This document shows positions 7,533-26,743 of a stretch of DNA of 26,743 bases, one piece after another. A model generated the notes under the pieces. The model did not search any database and had not been told where the DNA came from. It was given only the letters and a program-made list of their open reading frames with translations. Source of the DNA: a virus; the IMG/VR virus record IMGVR_UViG_3300046003_003424, positions 1-26,743 of that record; one strand, written 5' to 3'. Every line of letters begins with the position of its first letter. Within the stretch, counting starts at the first letter, position 1. A program made the translations under genes and the position numbers.

Positions 7533-9938
7533 TTATTTCAGGCCTGCTAAATTTTTAATGTCTGTCATTGGGTCCGGAACTTGTGTGCTATATTTTGGTT
7601 GCATTTTTGGTGTTGCTCCGCCTGTGATTGTTGCTACAAGTCTTTGCCATAATTGTTTAATTGGGCCTGGAGTTTCTTCTACTGGTTTTAAATCTTTAAA
7701 ATGTACTGCTATTGTTGTACCGTTGGCTAGATCAACTACTAAACTGTTTGAGAAACGGGTCTTCTCTGCTACTTTTGCTACTGTGCCTTTTTGTCCTTCT
7801 GCGGGTACATAGAATGTTTGTCCTATAAATGATTGCAGTTTGTCTGATACCTGATCTTCTGTGAATGTATCATCTTCATTTACTAATCGGTCAAATGCTT
7901 CTTCTAATGTTTCGTCTTTGCTCATCTTTTCTGTTTCACGGCGTGCTTTATCGCTGAGATTATGGATTTTGCCTATAGGATCTTTCTTCTTGCCTTTAGT
8001 TTTTTCCCAATCACCTTCGTGTTCCCAGCCTGTTAATTTGCCTGTTTTAGGATCATATTTGATTGTGTCTTTAGCTTCATTCATATTGTCATCAAACTCT
8101 TTTTTAGTTTCCCAATGGTTTTCATCACAGCAACTAAATTTGTCATCGCGTGGTTCACCACAGTATGTACATACTTCTTCATTATCATCAATATCTCGTT
8201 CTTCTGTTACTTTATATAAGTCATCAATGTCGCCTAAGTAGCCATCGCAAGCGTGTTCTTCATCGTTTGGACAATCACCTCCGCAATATTTACATTCTTC
8301 TTTATCTTCGTTTACTTCTTCTGGATAGTCTACGCCGACTTCACGGTATACTTCGCGTACCATGATACTAACATCGCTCGAACCTATTTCTTCCATTGGT
8401 GCATGGAATGATGCTACATCACTTGCAGCATTCATGATACCTTCTGGACCTGCTTTTTTAAGTAACTCACTGTGATCATCGATGCTGTTTAAGATTCTAC
8501 GTATGATCGCTGATTGTATATCTTCAATATTTGCTAATTGGTCTTCTTGGTTATCTTCTTCGTAGACCACACCATCTATGCCACTGTTGCTTGAGCCATA
8601 TGTGTTGCCTTCATCTATGTCACTACTTTCGATGTCTTGTTCTGCTGGGTAGTCCGGATCACCTATTTCATTTTCAATCTGTTGATAGATATTTGGTAGA
8701 TGTTCCTGTAGCCAATCTGCGACTAAATCACCCACATCGTGTTCTGGATCTATTCTTGCTATTTCTTGTATCTTATCAAATAGTTTGTCATCACCAATTA
8801 GATTATATAGTGCGTTGGTAGCATTTTGTCCATCAACGCCAGCTGGTAAAGGATTACTTAATAATTCAATTAGTTTATCCACGTCATCGTCGGTGTTAGG
8901 AACTGCCCATGTGCCTTCGGCTATGGTATCTGCCCAGTTGACAAATTGTTCTGCGAATTTATTTTCTTTTTTCATATTATATGCCTTGTGTACCAAAGGT
9001 AGTGCTTCTTCTAACCGATCGTCAAATGTTCGTTTCTCAAAACGTTGTTTCATTTCTTCTGTATCAATTTCTGGAATATATGAGGTTGATGTTGCTACAA
9101 ATTGTTCTTTACATCTTTGATACCCTTTCTTACCAGTCATGCGTTTTAGTGTGTTGTTTAATAGACCATGATATTCAACTGCTGCTTCTGCCATTGATTG
9201 TGTTTCTGTATCTTCAAATGTGCGATTTCTTGTGTTGTTTATGAATGGTTTTAGTTTAGCACATTCTTCTGCCATTTCACAGATGTGCTGACCTAGGTCA
9301 TCATGCATACTACCACCATGTTTGACATGTTGTGCCAGAGCACGACCTAGTCTAAGGCTTTTAACTGGTAGCTTGAAGCGTTCACCTTCCTGTGTTTCAA
9401 GATAGATGCTGTTGATATTGTGTGTGCGGGCACGGCGATTTTCTATTTCATCAAGTGCTTTAGTATGACGGACTATTAATCGCACAGGACCTTTACGTTC
9501 ATAGCTAGATTTGCGTGTACCATATAGGCTTTCGCTGATGACTTCATCTTTGTCGTAGGTACTGTCTGCTTTGCTAACCTGTTGTAGGTCTCGATGTTTT
9601 AATGTGCTTCTTGTTATATCTCTAGGTTCAAAGCTCAATAGGTTTGATTTAGCGAACCTGCGTAGTTCTTTGAGAAAGCCGTACCAATCATGGCGCTGTT
9701 CGTCTGTTAGATCGTCGCTGATATTCTTGCTAAAATAGACTTTTAGGCTGGTTTCATCGATGATGCTAAGGGTTACATTACCAAGATTTTCATCATCTAC
9801 AGTGTAGTCAAAATTGAAAAAACGTGCTTTTTCAGGATCTTGTGTGGCCTTGGCTTTATCATCACCCAAGCTAACATCCTCAAATCTATCACGGATTTTC
9901 TCAAATAGACCTTCTGCGATTTTGTTAATTTCTCTCAT
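7533..9938 (-). CDS. Large acidic protein with two Cys clusters, candidate internal virion protein
   Basis: An 801-residue protein of unknown function following gp17. Its N-terminus MREINKIAEG resembles the T4 capsid-targeting leader pattern, with a possible prohead-protease site IAE|G at residues 7-10; the same string recurs at 339-342 (TIAEGTW). Residues 471-536 form a helical region. Two Cys clusters follow: CKYCGGDC...HAC (549-564) and CTYCGEPRDDKFSCC (590-604), which look like zinc-binding knuckles. Residues 700-755 look like a small beta barrel (FYVPAEGQKGTVAKV, LVVDLANGTTIAVHF). The chain ends with MTDIKNLAGLK, a motif shared with two neighbours. The terminator at 7491 follows. The start ATG has no clear ribosome binding site and lies only 12 bases after the gp17 stop. 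It is certainly a gene; the virion role is inferred. Confidence 0.75.
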   Translation of the reverse strand: MREINKIAEGLFEKIRDRFEDVSLGDDKAKATQDPEKARFFNFDYTVDDENLGNVTLSIIDETSLKVYFSKNISDDLTDEQRHDWYGFLKELRRFAKSNLLSFEPRDITRSTLKHRDLQQVSKADSTYDKDEVISESLYGTRKSSYERKGPVRLIVRHTKALDEIENRRARTHNINSIYLETQEGERFKLPVKSLRLGRALAQHVKHGGSMHDDLGQHICEMAEECAKLKPFINNTRNRTFEDTETQSMAEAAVEYHGLLNNTLKRMTGKKGYQRCKEQFVATSTSYIPEIDTEEMKQRFEKRTFDDRLEEALPLVHKAYNMKKENKFAEQFVNWADTIAEGTWAVPNTDDDVDKLIELLSNPLPAGVDGQNATNALYNLIGDDKLFDKIQEIARIDPEHDVGDLVADWLQEHLPNIYQQIENEIGDPDYPAEQDIESSDIDEGNTYGSSNSGIDGVVYEEDNQEDQLANIEDIQSAIIRRILNSIDDHSELLKKAGPEGIMNAASDVASFHAPMEEIGSSDVSIMVREVYREVGVDYPEEVNEDKEECKYCGGDCPNDEEHACDGYLGDIDDLYKVTEERDIDDNEEVCTYCGEPRDDKFSCCDENHWETKKEFDDNMNEAKDTIKYDPKTGKLTGWEHEGDWEKTKGKKKDPIGKIHNLSDKARRETEKMSKDETLEEAFDRLVNEDDTFTEDQVSDKLQSFIGQTFYVPAEGQKGTVAKVAEKTRFSNSLVVDLANGTTIAVHFKDLKPVEETPGPIKQLWQRLVATITGGATPKMQPKYSTQVPDPMTDIKNLAGLK

Positions 9939-18112: not shown

Positions 18113-19138
18113 TTATACGTCTGTTCGACCTTGATTGCTTGCACCAAAAATACCAGAAGTAGCTTTACTGATACCTTGTTGAACTGATCCGCTGGTTGGC
18201 ACGAAAATACTGCTCAACGGATTACGACCTTTCATAATACTTTCACCTATCTGGCTCAGATCTAATGCAGGTGCTTGTTTAAGTTGTGTATTTGTTCCTG
18301 TAAGTATGTTTGTGGCATTTATTACATTCTGCACTGTGCTGCCCAAATCGCCATTTTCGATACTGTTTAGGATACTGCCGCCAGCACCAATAAGTGCGCC
18401 GAGATTACGTAATGGACTTGAGGTTTGATCATAATGGACTTCAGCAAAGCCCAATACTGTGCCATTACTTACAGGTCCTGTGTCATATAACACAGATTCA
18501 TAGTTCACTGTCATTGAATGTTCCAATGGAGCATACGCACCAGATTCGTGTTGACCGTGTTGAAAAATTTGTATCATTGGACGCATTAGTGTATAACTGC
18601 TGAAACGTTTTTGATGTAGACTATAAATCCTTATGCTGGTGATAAACGGAATGTTGCCAGCTAGATCAGTCTTGGGACTGTAACCCCAATTTTGTTGTTG
18701 TCGCTGTTTATACTTGCTGTCATCTTTAAAATTCTCAATAGGATAATCACTGTCTCTATAGTAGTAACTATAGTAATTATACCAAAACTTACGGACTATA
18801 TCAGCACTGTCATCATGGAAGGTAATAGTAACTGGATCATATGTAACTTTTTCCTGTTGGATAGTTTTTCTATTGTATGCATTATGTGTTTTAGTGGCAA
18901 CAGTAAACTTAGGTAACTGTACCTGTTTGGCCATCAAACCTGTTTCAATTTGACTTAGCTGATCGATATTGGCTATATTTTGATTAACATCAATGAACAC
19001 ATGGAATAGATTATTTAATTTAGGACTAAGTCTGTATAATCCATCAATAAAAGTTCGTGCGGCATGTTGGTAATCGCGAATATTTCTATTAGGTGCTATT
19101 GACTGTAATATATCGCCGAAGATATTGTTTTGTGACAT
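18113..19138 (-). CDS. Baseplate tube-cap-like protein (gp48/gp54 type)
   Basis: A 341-residue protein with a tail-tube-like core. Residues about 40-120 read LFHVFIDVNQ, GLMAKQVQLPKFTVATKTHN, RKTIQQEKVTYDPVTITFHD, the strand order expected where a tube protein fold begins a tail tube. Middle residues (FWYNYYSYYYRDSDYP, then a QRQQQNWGY segment) and the strands LEHSMTVNYESVLYD complete the domain. The C-terminal 100 residues are low-complexity Gly/Ser/Asn. T4 gp54 (320 aa) and gp48 cap the baseplate and start the tube; length and position beside gp19 fit either. I cannot separate gp48 from gp54, and a tail-tube-like chaperone or terminator is a less likely alternative. A terminator and a late promoter lie immediately upstream. 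Confidence 0.6.
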   Translation of the reverse strand: MSQNNIFGDILQSIAPNRNIRDYQHAARTFIDGLYRLSPKLNNLFHVFIDVNQNIANIDQLSQIETGLMAKQVQLPKFTVATKTHNAYNRKTIQQEKVTYDPVTITFHDDSADIVRKFWYNYYSYYYRDSDYPIENFKDDSKYKQRQQQNWGYSPKTDLAGNIPFITSIRIYSLHQKRFSSYTLMRPMIQIFQHGQHESGAYAPLEHSMTVNYESVLYDTGPVSNGTVLGFAEVHYDQTSSPLRNLGALIGAGGSILNSIENGDLGSTVQNVINATNILTGTNTQLKQAPALDLSQIGESIMKGRNPLSSIFVPTSGSVQQGISKATSGIFGASNQGRTDV

Positions 19139-19166: not shown

Positions 19167-19201
19167 GAAAAAAAAGCTCGGTTTTTTACGCCGAGCTTTT
19201 T
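19167..19201 (-). terminator. Strong intrinsic terminator after gp19
   Basis: An 11-bp stem (AAAAGCTCGG-type, 19171-19181 with 19191-19201) and a 9-base loop, followed in the minus direction by a T run. It lies 18 bases beyond the gp19 stop, so gp19 can be made as a separate abundant transcript. The plus-strand side also ends in T residues, so it may act both ways. Confidence 0.85.
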
Positions 19202-19218: not shown

Positions 19219-19836
19219 TTAACCAGTGATTACTGTGCCTAGTGTTCTTGTTAGTGTAGCACCAATGCCAGATCCTGTAGGTGTTTGTAGTGCGTTATCG
19301 TAACGGATAGTTAATGCAATAGTCACTGGATCATTTGTAGCATAGTTAACATCCATATAATCTGTTGTGCTTAGATAGCAACCATACATCTCCCAAGTTT
19401 CAAGGATATTAGGAGTATTCGTTCCGTTACCGCCATCAAGGATTTCAAGTAATGTTATAAATTTGTAGTCAATACCTGAACTAGCAGAACTTTGTTCAAA
19501 GAAGTCATATTGTTTCTGCATCTGTTCACCAACACGTTTGCTGACTTCACCGCCCGAATCATCACGTAGTTGGCAAGTTACTTCAGCCCAGGTAGGTTTA
19601 CCAGCTAGATAAACTTTGCTGTTGTAGATAGGAATTTCAATAGGGTCAAAACTCACGCTTGGACGCTTGAACTCCATAACCTGTTTGGTCAGCTCAGTAG
19701 TAGGTTGTGTAACACCAAAATTCAAGAAAGTCACGCGAAAGCGGAACTTTAATTTTGGCATTAGTAACCCTTGGCTACTTGCGCTTTGGTTAGTACTTAA
19801 CGGTACTGTAAAATTTGTTAATGATGCTACTGACAT
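19219..19836 (-). CDS. gp19: Tail tube protein (gp19)
   Basis: The major inner tail tube subunit, stacked in hexameric rings inside the sheath. The 205-residue protein shows the gp19 pattern: LKFRFRVTFLNFG (residues 29-41), TKQVMEFKRPSVSFDPIEIP, a YNSKVYLAGKPTWAEVTCQL segment (about 69-88) that forms the tube beta hairpin, and a C-terminal DPVTIALTIRYDNALQ strand typical of tube subunits. T4 gp19 is 163 aa; the extra length is at both termini and in loops. It lies between gp18 and the tube-cap-like gene, has a good AAGGAA site before its start and its own terminator, consistent with a highly expressed late gene. Confidence 0.88.
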   Translation of the reverse strand: MSVASLTNFTVPLSTNQSASSQGLLMPKLKFRFRVTFLNFGVTQPTTELTKQVMEFKRPSVSFDPIEIPIYNSKVYLAGKPTWAEVTCQLRDDSGGEVSKRVGEQMQKQYDFFEQSSASSGIDYKFITLLEILDGGNGTNTPNILETWEMYGCYLSTTDYMDVNYATNDPVTIALTIRYDNALQTPTGSGIGATLTRTLGTVITG

Positions 19837-23383: not shown

Positions 23384-23734
23384 ATGGAATATCGAAAAAT
23401 ATGCGAAATCTGTGGTAAAAAGCCGGTTGCAGTCAACTATAAGATGCATGGTAAGATTTACTATAGATCTAAGTGTGATACCTGTTGTAGAAAGAAGCGT
23501 AACAAACCAGCACCTAAACCTCGTTGGATGTTAACCGGCTACAAAAAGAAACCGCACTGTGAAAAGTGCGGATTTAAAGCTAAGTTAAAACAACAACTAT
23601 TTGTCTATCATATTGACGGTGATCTAAACAATTCCAGCGTGACTAACCTCAAAACAGTATGTGCTAACTGCCAATATGAAATTGCTCGAGAGGGATTGGG
23701 GTGGCGTCAAGGAGATCTAATTCCTGACTATTAG
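23384..23734 (+). CDS. HNH-type zinc-finger protein on the opposite strand
   Basis: The only gene on the plus strand, 116 residues. It carries four CxxC knuckles: C7/C10 (CEIC), C31/C34 (CDTC), C59/C62 (CEKC) and C93/C96 (CANC). Between the last two lies YHIDGDLNNSSVTNLKTVC (75-93), the HNH layout in which His76 would be the general base and Asn82/Asn83 the middle motif, with zinc held by the outer cysteines. HNH proteins nick or cut DNA, either as homing endonucleases or as packaging helpers. The very basic middle (RKKRNKPAPKPRW) fits DNA binding. I recall related opposite-strand genes near the sheath in marine T4-like phages. Its 3' end overlaps the gp1 3' end tail-to-tail by 71 bases. No clear ribosome binding site was seen. 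Confidence 0.72.
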   Translation: MEYRKICEICGKKPVAVNYKMHGKIYYRSKCDTCCRKKRNKPAPKPRWMLTGYKKKPHCEKCGFKAKLKQQLFVYHIDGDLNNSSVTNLKTVCANCQYEIAREGLGWRQGDLIPDY

Positions 23735-24425: not shown

Positions 24426-25619
24426 TTAGCCCATTAACCAAGTTAATGGTTGACCACCGTCTACATAGTTCCTGATTTCTTCATCAAGTTTATCTAATAG
24501 AGCTTGGCCTTCTTGTTTGAGTGCTGTACCGTTTAGGCTAGTGCCGCCTTGTGGGCCTGCGATTGATGCAAATTTTTCACGTGCTTGACCTATACTCATT
24601 GATGTTAAAGCATAAGCGTAGTCCTGGATCCATGGAAATACCTGTGGGTCGTTAAGTAACATGATGTCTGGTTTATAGTTATATAAATGTAATAACACTG
24701 TTTCTGTAACAGCATTATCTGGGCTACTAGGTGAACTAACATAGGTTGAGGCTAGGGCCATGTCATTAACCACCGTGGCACCTAGTGCTGCTGTATTTAA
24801 GAATGTAAAGATTTGTTGCGTTGGATCTACGCTAGTAATTGTGTATGTTCCGTTATATCCAGCAACTGGACAATTGGTAATACTTACTGTGCTACCTACG
24901 CTAACTCCTTGCCAAGGTCCTTGATTAGAAATTTGGAATGTAACTGTACTACCTGGTGCTGTCCCACTGGCTGTTAAACTTCTTAATCTAAGTGTAGCGC
25001 CTGCACCTTGGAATGGGATTTTGCGAACTAAAGTCATTTTTTTAGTGACTTTATTCCAAGTAAAGTTCATAAAACCACCAAACATCTTCATAGCAAGTTT
25101 TTGATAGTCTACAAACAATTCATAATTAGTTAAGCCACCCACTCGTCCAGCTACCAACATATAAGTGTTCAAGTAGCCACTTGCAAATGGTTCAAATTGG
25201 CTAGCTGTGGTACCTGTTACACTACCGATACCACGACGATAAATTGCTTTAACATCCATGACTGTGTTAGGTAGTATGTATTCTTGTGTTTCGGGATATA
25301 AATCTAAAAATGCATAACTTTCTTCTACTGAGTTACTGCTCTTTTGTCGATAACGGATCAGTGCTTGTTTAATACCCATGTCAAAGTGTTCTTTATCAGC
25401 TTCAACATCGATCATACCATACCCTAAACGTAGGCGTATATAATCAACGATGTCGTTTTGTAGGCTTTGGACTGTGGTTAACTGTGCTTGTAGATTAGCA
25501 TCAAACGCTATATGTCCAGAACCCGAACCCGTATATGGATTATACAAGCTCTCAGTTTGCATACTGAGAGTCGCTGTTAAGTTACCGGTTGCTGAAACGT
25601 TTGCTGGAAGTAAAGACAT
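24426..25619 (-). CDS. gp13: Neck protein (gp13-like)
   Basis: A 397-residue protein matching the gp13 neck family, which with gp14 joins head to tail after packaging. Family segments: VDYIRLRLGYGMIDVEADKE (about 58-77), QALIRYRQKSSNSVEESYAF (85-104), YILPNTVMDVKAIYRRG (114-130), LFVDYQKLAMKMFGGFMNFT (168-187), and a C-terminal helix (EGQALLDKLDEEIRNYVDGG) ending in TWLMG. T4 gp13 is 309 aa. The extra length is a Gly/Ser/Thr-rich insertion at about 210-295 with GYNGTYTITSVDP, a pattern seen in Ig-like or small beta-sandwich decoration domains. A late promoter enclosed by a 10-bp inverted repeat lies upstream. Confidence 0.8.
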   Translation of the reverse strand: MSLLPANVSATGNLTATLSMQTESLYNPYTGSGSGHIAFDANLQAQLTTVQSLQNDIVDYIRLRLGYGMIDVEADKEHFDMGIKQALIRYRQKSSNSVEESYAFLDLYPETQEYILPNTVMDVKAIYRRGIGSVTGTTASQFEPFASGYLNTYMLVAGRVGGLTNYELFVDYQKLAMKMFGGFMNFTWNKVTKKMTLVRKIPFQGAGATLRLRSLTASGTAPGSTVTFQISNQGPWQGVSVGSTVSITNCPVAGYNGTYTITSVDPTQQIFTFLNTAALGATVVNDMALASTYVSSPSSPDNAVTETVLLHLYNYKPDIMLLNDPQVFPWIQDYAYALTSMSIGQAREKFASIAGPQGGTSLNGTALKQEGQALLDKLDEEIRNYVDGGQPLTWLMG

Positions 25620-25624
25620 TTAAA

Positions 25625-25664
25625 TTATCCTGTTATCTTGTATTTATTGCCGACAACAGGATAA
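25625..25664 (-). promoter_or_regulatory. Hairpin that may hide the gp13 ribosome binding site, with late promoter in the loop
   Basis: A perfect 10-bp inverted repeat: TTATCCTGTT at 25625-25634 and AACAGGATAA at 25655-25664, with a 20-base loop. In the gp13 mRNA the second arm contains AGGA, the ribosome binding site eight bases before the ATG at 25619. The octamer AATAAATA (25641-25648) lies in the loop. A transcript started there would begin near 25635 and lack the first arm, leaving the site open. Confidence 0.6.
25641..25648 (-). promoter_or_regulatory. Late promoter for gp13
   Basis: AATAAATA on the minus strand, 21 bases before the gp13 start at 25619 and inside the loop of the surrounding 10-bp inverted repeat. 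Confidence 0.55.
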
Positions 25665-25691
25665 GTTTGGCTTTACGCTACCTTGAGGGGA

Positions 25692-26743
25692 TTAGATTAC
25701 CTTAAGTAGGATAGTATCTGCGTTGATACGTCCATTGAGTTTAATTTCTGTAGTTTTGATATTATCTAAGAACTTGCGTAGTTCTACTTTATTACTGGCT
25801 AGGAATGCTTTAACCTGTTCTTCAGGTTTACGCAGGGTTTTTTGTGTGCTCTTAGTTTCACTAAATCCTGTGATACTTGTACCTTTAACTCCGAGCACGC
25901 CACCTTGGTCTTCTGCTACATATCGACCTAGTTTACGATTTTTAACGTTATAAACCCATAACTGTTCTGCACCAACGATGTCCACTGGATTGATTGATAC
26001 CAGTTTCATACCGGCATCTTGTTTAAGATATTTCAAGCCACGGACTAGTTTTTCTTTAGCTGGCGGTTTACGTACTGCGGCTTTTTTAGTAGCTTTCTTA
26101 GTCTGATTGTAAGCAGTCAGATCGGCAAATAATTTGTCATAGAAAGCATCATAGCGTTTATAGTCTGCGGCTTTCATATAGCTGTAAGCGTCTTTAAGAT
26201 CTTCATCTTTGGTTGTTCTTGCTTCACGCACTTCTGCACAGCGTGGTTCAAACACTGCTGATATCTTACCTATCAATACCTGTGGAACATTGTTTTTTGT
26301 TAGGTATTCATAGGCTTTAGGATCCACAGACTCACCTGTATACAAGGCATCCTCGAGCATTTCAAAATAAAGGATATGCTTTTTAGCCACTTCATTCATA
26401 CGGTCTTGTATTGTCGGAATATAGACTTCTGGTTTCTTTATTTCTGGCTTAGCTTCAAAATCTTCATCGTTGTCTGCTTTTAAAGTCAATACTTTCTTGA
26501 CCGCTTCTAGGATATATTCTACATGACGATCACGCAAGGGCATGCCACGCTCATGTGCTTTGATCAGGGCGCAAACTGTAAATGGAGTTAGACAATCTGC
26601 ACTGCGTTGATAACGATCAATAGTAGTTTTATCTAACTTATGTAAACCTTCGCTACCTTCATGCTGACGTAGCCAAGCTACTACATACTTCTTAAGATCT
26701 TTGGTGCTGTAGTAGTAATTGTAATAGCGTAGGCTTTGGCTCT
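25692..26743 (-). CDS. Unknown virion-block protein (5' end outside window)
   Basis: The frame is open from the stop at 25692 to the window edge, giving 349 visible residues; the ATG at 26543 is internal because the upstream 200 bases stay open and encode a continuous helical protein (SLRYYNYYYSTKDLKKYV, IDRYQRSADC, CALIKAHERG). The middle is acidic to basic helical sequence with a Lys/Ala-rich linker (YNQTKKATKKAAVRKPPAKE). The end reads as a beta-rich domain (MKLVSINPVDIVGAEQLWVY, GVLGVKGTSITGF, LNGRINADTILLKVI). It lies directly upstream of gp13. I recall unknown conserved proteins beginning with such RYYNYY stretches in marine T4-like phages, but assign no function. Confidence 0.7.
   Translation of the reverse strand, partial: SQSLRYYNYYYSTKDLKKYVVAWLRQHEGSEGLHKLDKTTIDRYQRSADCLTPFTVCALIKAHERGMPLRDRHVEYILEAVKKVLTLKADNDEDFEAKPEIKKPEVYIPTIQDRMNEVAKKHILYFEMLEDALYTGESVDPKAYEYLTKNNVPQVLIGKISAVFEPRCAEVREARTTKDEDLKDAYSYMKAADYKRYDAFYDKLFADLTAYNQTKKATKKAAVRKPPAKEKLVRGLKYLKQDAGMKLVSINPVDIVGAEQLWVYNVKNRKLGRYVAEDQGGVLGVKGTSITGFSETKSTQKTLRKPEEQVKAFLASNKVELRKFLDNIKTTEIKLNGRINADTILLKVI

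Follow-up and report, generated by a model that had tools for sequence, protein, structure and literature searches.

The window analyzed here, a 26,743-nucleotide stretch of viral DNA, encodes on its minus strand a 397-aa gp13-like head-tail adaptor (neck) protein (24426..25619, start ATG at 25619). The product has a match to PHROG 211 (annotated as "head-tail adaptor Ad2"; E value, 2.8e-28), and tblastn links it to jumbo-phage proteins annotated as neck proteins; passages of a report on phage CBB (PMC5259590) describe the homologue there as related to T4 gp13 and as detected in virions by mass spectrometry; on these grounds we retain the name gp13-like. The gp13 of the window's clade carries an insert of ∼90 aa that is absent from many close relatives (compare L048-L080), with tblastn match lengths of ∼915 bases in relatives without the insert versus 1191. 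Upstream lies a co-oriented gene of no known function (25692..26743, minus strand; PHROG 11903), whose start and early promoter must fall outside the window, given that its frame stays open to the window end. Genes of PHROG 11903 are present in several jumbo and T4-like phages, and the one upstream of gp13 has the look of an early gene, judging by its promoter in relatives.

Between the two genes is an inverted repeat that encloses a candidate late promoter. Read along the minus strand, the layout is TTATCCTGTT-N20-AACAGGATAA, in which the 5' arm TTATCCTGTT (25664-25655), the loop GTCGGCAATAAATACAAGAT (25654-25635), and the 3' arm AACAGGATAA (25634-25625) are followed by TTTAA and then by the gp13 start codon. 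The octamer AATAAATA, the putative promoter, occupies 25641..25648 in the loop, and the AGGA Shine-Dalgarno (SD) sequence of gp13 occupies 25628..25631 within the 3' arm, making the 5' arm an anti-Shine-Dalgarno element. The complementarity of the two 10-nt arms is perfect, and in the RNA fold the stem extends to 13 pairs, including one G.U, that join 25664-25652 with 25637-25625. An earlier note on this DNA had described a perfect 10-bp repeat around an octamer with AGGA in its 3' arm; the sequence confirms this, and shuffling places the arrangement far from chance. When the 60 nt upstream were shuffled 20,000 times by mononucleotide, 19 of the shuffles contained any short-loop inverted repeat with 10 perfect base pairs, and the 86-nt RNA folds at -22.6 kcal/mol versus -10.8 ± 2.5 for dinucleotide shuffles (z of -4.7; 0/200 as low). 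Only three perfect 10-bp hairpins with loops of at most 30 exist in the 26.7-kb window, the gp13 hairpin among them, and this hairpin is not a chance product. Rfam, Pfam, and NCBIfam did not help to characterize the hairpin, gp13, or its upstream neighbor, an Rfam covariance-model search of 25300-26000 returning no match up to an E value of 1, and an exact-pattern search for further copies of the hairpin in related contigs was uninformative.

Because the T4 late consensus sits at -13 to -6 relative to the transcript start (PMC1524935), we place the predicted +1 of a transcript from AATAAATA at 25635 on the minus strand. The earlier note had proposed the same base and had located it exactly at the edge of the 3' arm; the position agrees with the T4 spacing, but the second part applies to the perfect 10-bp arm and not to the full 13-pair stem, within which 25635 lies by two bases, and the register of +1 against the stem edge is not conserved across relatives. 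What relatives do conserve is the location of the promoter in the loop or the 5' arm, which means that the late RNA would always lack the 5' arm. A count of octamers like TATAAATA shows no enrichment in the window on its own, and we therefore draw the evidence for the promoter from the strand bias of the motif and from gp55. TAAATA, which is kept at this site in relatives, is strongly enriched in the sense orientation upstream of their genes (51 sense versus 10 antisense in the related genome G002), and a gp55-type sigma factor (PHROG 234/12791) is encoded in 8 of the 13 genomes or contigs searched, with E values down to 2e-160. These include larger related contigs, and those contigs without a match are mostly fragments, as is the window.

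Independent support for this +1 position comes from genes that lack an SD sequence, many of which, in the window's clade, have their ATG exactly 5 nt after TAAATA, that is, at the predicted +1. Among SD-less genes of six genomes, TAAATA-ATG spacings of 3, 4, 5, 6, and 7 occur 2, 7, 30, 3, and 8 times, respectively, with six control hexamers together giving 20, 29, 19, 22, and 12; T4, GAP32, and RaK2 show no ATG peak at spacing 5. Such genes are probably expressed from leaderless late mRNAs. The window contains two of them, at 7533-9938 on the minus strand (GATAAATACTTACATG) and 23384-23734 on the plus strand (GCTAAATAGCTGTATG), and others are found in G002, G003, G004, G005, and G010 and at marine gp13 loci such as L333, L373, and L391. 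Elsewhere on the minus strand, the window carries tandem tail-tube-like genes (18113-19138 and 19219-19836; PHROG 4542), both of which have a late promoter of their own, and a terminator-like hairpin (19171-19201) precedes the first of the pair.

To compare RNAs that reach upstream of the promoter with RNAs that start at +1, we calculated the free energy required to keep the SD open in each. For gp13 of the window, the predicted folds give 14.8 kcal/mol in the read-through RNA versus 2.2 kcal/mol in the RNA starting at 25635, and AGGA is fully paired in the predicted fold of the longer upstream RNA. In T4, the same scan ranks I-TevI, I-TevII, 26, 51, e, and 49 at the top, with opening costs of 12.3 kcal/mol for I-TevI (late RNA, 0.6), 12.1 for e (late RNA, 2.1), and 9.9 for 49. 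The presence of several published cases among these top ranks indicates that the measure works, and its failure to recover the known case of soc (∼0 kcal/mol) indicates that it is not exhaustive. In most of the gp13-bearing contigs scanned, including the window and GAP32, gp13 has the strongest late-promoter hairpin; it ranks third among late-promoter genes in RaK2, and it was missed in G004, where the sequence GGGA lay outside that scan's SD list. Other strong late-promoter SD hairpins were seen at GAP32 235913 and RaK2 139479, at GAP32 16348, at RaK2 211210 and 25237, at G002 57881, and at GAP32 278826; the genes with such hairpins comprise a KTSC-domain gene (conserved in both GAP32 and RaK2), genes for a virion protein and a non-specific endonuclease, a tail tube gene, and two HNH-endonuclease-like genes. 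In T4, the divergent genes 26 and 51 (116428 and 116479) each have their late promoter inside an SD hairpin, on one stretch of DNA.

A search with the gp13 protein yielded 80 viral contigs, nearly all of which have a layout of the gp13 type upstream. These contigs, together with searches using divergent queries and ten annotated jumbo phages, provided a set of 93 different upstream regions, which we compared with two yardsticks: 1,860 sequences in which the region 5' of the promoter had been shuffled, and 213 other late-promoter genes from the same genomes. A stem score of at least 20 was reached by 85 of the 93 gp13 upstream regions, versus 14% of the shuffled sequences and 38/213 (18%) of the other genes, and a score of at least 25 by 74/93, versus 3% and 14/213. 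A promoter hairpin over the gp13 SD thus appears to be unusually widespread, extending over a large family of giant T4-like phages. A strong hairpin is missing from some co-oriented gp13 genes (those of L021, PA5oct, and a marine subgroup), two of the weak-hairpin loci even having a good sigma-70 promoter upstream, and the device is therefore not essential.

The earlier note had suggested comparing relatives for compensatory changes in the two arms, and the arms prove to be conserved in exactly this manner. The 83 rows compared contain 39 distinct arm pairs, in which 94% of cells are paired versus 39 to 45% when the partners are slid. The pairs range from TTATCCTGTT/AACAGGATAA in the window clade to AGTCCTACGATAA/TTATCGTAGGACT in L033, CCCGTTTAAAG/CTTTAAACGGG in L038, GTATCCTGTT/AACAGGATAC in L044, CCCCTAAATATG/CATGTTTAGGGG in GAP32, and AAGCACCTCTAAA/TTTAGAGGTGCTT in Hallingskeid, and the isolated phages GAP32, CBB, RaK2, 121Q, XaC1, and Hallingskeid have the layout in common with unrelated arms. 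The two G residues of the SD lie opposite C in 82/83 and 80/83 relatives. In a MAFFT alignment of 37 sequences (A2), 93.2% of cells are paired, there are 57 two-sided changes, and 6 of 8 pairs change on both sides; its covariation score is 0.506, versus 0.185 for shuffled alignments (0/500 as high) and at most 0.111 for slid partners, and RNAalifold, unprompted, finds the identical stem. Although the rows are related and the counts are not independent events, the 39 distinct arm pairs and their phylogenetic breadth make chance implausible.

We consider it likely that RNA from upstream reads through into gp13, since a near-perfect sigma-70 promoter is found on the co-oriented upstream gene in most relatives. 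Where the sequence of a relative covers the region, the upstream gene points the same way as gp13 and in many cases carries a perfect TTGACA-16/17-TATAAT at its 5' end; one such relative is L002, which has a gp13 100% identical to the window's and in which 24 nt separate the end of a perfect TTGACA-16-TATAAT from the upstream gene's first ATG. Across 50 co-oriented loci, sigma-70 promoters with at least 11 of 12 matches within 2.5 kb upstream were found in the sense orientation at 36/50 versus 3/50 in antisense, and among 32 loci with strong hairpins, 20 have such a promoter at the upstream gene's 5' end; promoters matching at all 12 positions are rare, with 0 to 8 per metagenomic contig scanned. 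A terminator scan of the window found none between the upstream gene and gp13. The upstream read-through RNA called for by the earlier note is supported to this extent, at the level of promoter sequences, and we found no transcriptome of a close relative in the open-access literature.

The orientation of the upstream neighbor was also recorded. The raw contrast is striking, in that loci with the hairpin number 71 with a co-oriented and 3 with a divergent neighbor, and hairpin-less loci number 35 divergent and 19 co-oriented, but a dependence of the hairpin on upstream orientation traces to about four changes in the phylogeny and is not significant once shared descent is considered. Of the three divergent "hairpins," two are palindromes formed by back-to-back late promoters. 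The near-constant absence of an SD hairpin behind a divergent neighbor is in line with the model of silencing on early RNA, with few independent origins. There are 24 divergent marine gp13 genes with their ATG at the predicted +1, and a two-way view can be put forward, in which a promoter hairpin would serve where gp13 follows an early gene and an SD-less leaderless mRNA would serve in many phages with divergent neighbors. We offer only tentatively, and doubt more than we believe, that late-only translation of gp13 is a conserved need across a wide T4-like group that is met in one or the other of these two ways; if it is true, gp13 would be translatable only from RNA starting at its own late promoter.

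The reading that we favor, to which we assign a probability of roughly 85%, is that gp13 is translationally silenced on early RNA and released by the late promoter in the hairpin loop. Early in infection, host RNA polymerase with sigma-70 would transcribe the upstream gene and read through into gp13; on this RNA TTATCCTGTT would pair with AACAGGATAA, AGGA would be hidden, and gp13 would not be made. Later, a gp55-type late sigma factor would direct initiation at AATAAATA, and the resulting RNA, starting at about 25635, would lack the 5' arm, leave AGGA single-stranded, and be translated, so that production of gp13 would be late.

The hairpin lies at the end of what looks like an early gene, and on a rival reading it would act chiefly as an intrinsic terminator or attenuator for the early operon upstream, with a late promoter that overlaps it by accident and yields RNA that, having no 5' arm, is not terminated. 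The downstream T-run that such a terminator would have is present in 12 of 15 rows of the GAP32/RaK2 type (at least 6 T in the 8 bases after the stem) but in 0/28 rows of the window clade and 8/40 others. The window hairpin is likewise absent from the terminator-scan list, its loop of 14 to 20 nt and A+U-rich stem base fit a terminator poorly, and termination has no need of the SD, which is nonetheless paired in nearly all rows. We regard termination as an unlikely main function, while noting that in GAP32-type phages, with their T-run after the hairpin, it may act alongside SD sequestration or in its place. The hairpin also comes shortly behind the stop codon of the upstream gene (21 to 73 nt separate that codon from the gp13 start in most loci), as expected if its main role were to protect the 3' terminus of that gene's early mRNA or to serve as an RNase processing site, with SD pairing incidental. 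The 3' arm, however, tracks the SD and start codon of gp13 and not the upstream gene, the distance to the ATG is nearly fixed while the upstream gap varies, and such a hairpin is rare at the other late genes of these genomes, all of which makes this role very improbable.

The symmetry of the repeat around the promoter could instead mark a DNA operator at which a bound dimeric protein represses or activates the late promoter in the loop, and an operator overlapping the I-TevI late promoter is known to be bound by I-TevI itself (PMC2988022). A protein site would be expected to keep its sequence and spacing, whereas here the arms are swapped wholesale between relatives with pairing kept, loop length varies widely, and what is conserved in the arm is the SD together with its complementary bases. 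The stem also accepts G.U pairs, which are common in it and favor RNA over a DNA palindrome, and we consider an operator extremely improbable.

If gp13 is silenced on early RNA, a mechanism familiar from the lysis, decoration, and homing genes of T4 also operates on a gene for the virion neck, and in jumbo phages. Conservation of the hairpin through repeated rewriting of its arms suggests that early production of gp13 is costly, and it raises the question of what premature neck protein does to virion assembly. The layout also offers a purely sequence-based means of finding late genes behind early promoters. In 121Q (L084, annotated gp13 start 1435) and RaK2 (L090, 1432), the annotated start codons fall within the hairpin (ATGAGGTGC...); an ATG past the 3' arm, 12 to 15 nt downstream, is the likelier start in both, and the hairpin layout suggests shifting the two annotations to the ATG behind it.

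Judged by sequence, the anatomy of the gp13 locus matches the T4 type point by point, including the placement of the late promoter: the 5' arm lies upstream of the predicted +1 at 25635, and the predicted late RNA therefore lacks it. The mechanism itself is known from T4; the novelty lies in its proposed use for a neck protein, in the group of phages involved, and in how deeply the arrangement is conserved. The earlier note knew of no report of such a switch for a neck gene, and our survey of the open-access literature agrees, with none found for gp13 or for giant T4-like phages and no mention of gene 13 in a T4 review; the passages found in PMC5259590 do not describe hairpin sequestration at gp13, and our fold scan of T4 shows no late-promoter hairpin over the SD of T4 gene 13 itself. 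Passages of PMC5259590 do report an ATAAATA motif upstream of structural genes and a gp55-like sigma factor in CBB and GAP32, a late promoter motif that the gp13 locus has in common with them. In T4, late genes are present on long transcripts together with early and middle genes (PMC2988022), a setting that the promoters upstream of gp13 in relatives would reproduce. The late genes soc, 49, and 26 of T4, which share long RNAs with early or middle genes, have ribosome binding sites (RBS) hidden by RNA structure (PMC2988022, PMC3014915), as in our model of gp13, with other gene functions. For I-TevI, I-TevII, I-TevIII, and segB of T4 and mobE of Aeh1, a hairpin covers the RBS on early or middle RNA and the late RNA lacks the inhibitory arm (PMC2988022); the late promoter is placed, as at gp13, such that this arm is omitted, but these are homing endonucleases, several of them within introns, and I-TevI also represses its own promoter (PMC2988022). 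In the leader of T4 e, the late promoter lies in the 5' part of the stem that hides the SD on early RNA, late transcripts are without this part and are translated, and repression is ∼100-fold (PMC3014915). The gp13 locus resembles e in having its late promoter inside the hairpin predicted to hide the SD and a predicted late RNA without the 5' part, whereas e is a lysis gene with two late promoters and a lower computed opening cost (12.1 kcal/mol), and gp13 is a virion neck gene whose stem has been rewritten many times across divergent phages.
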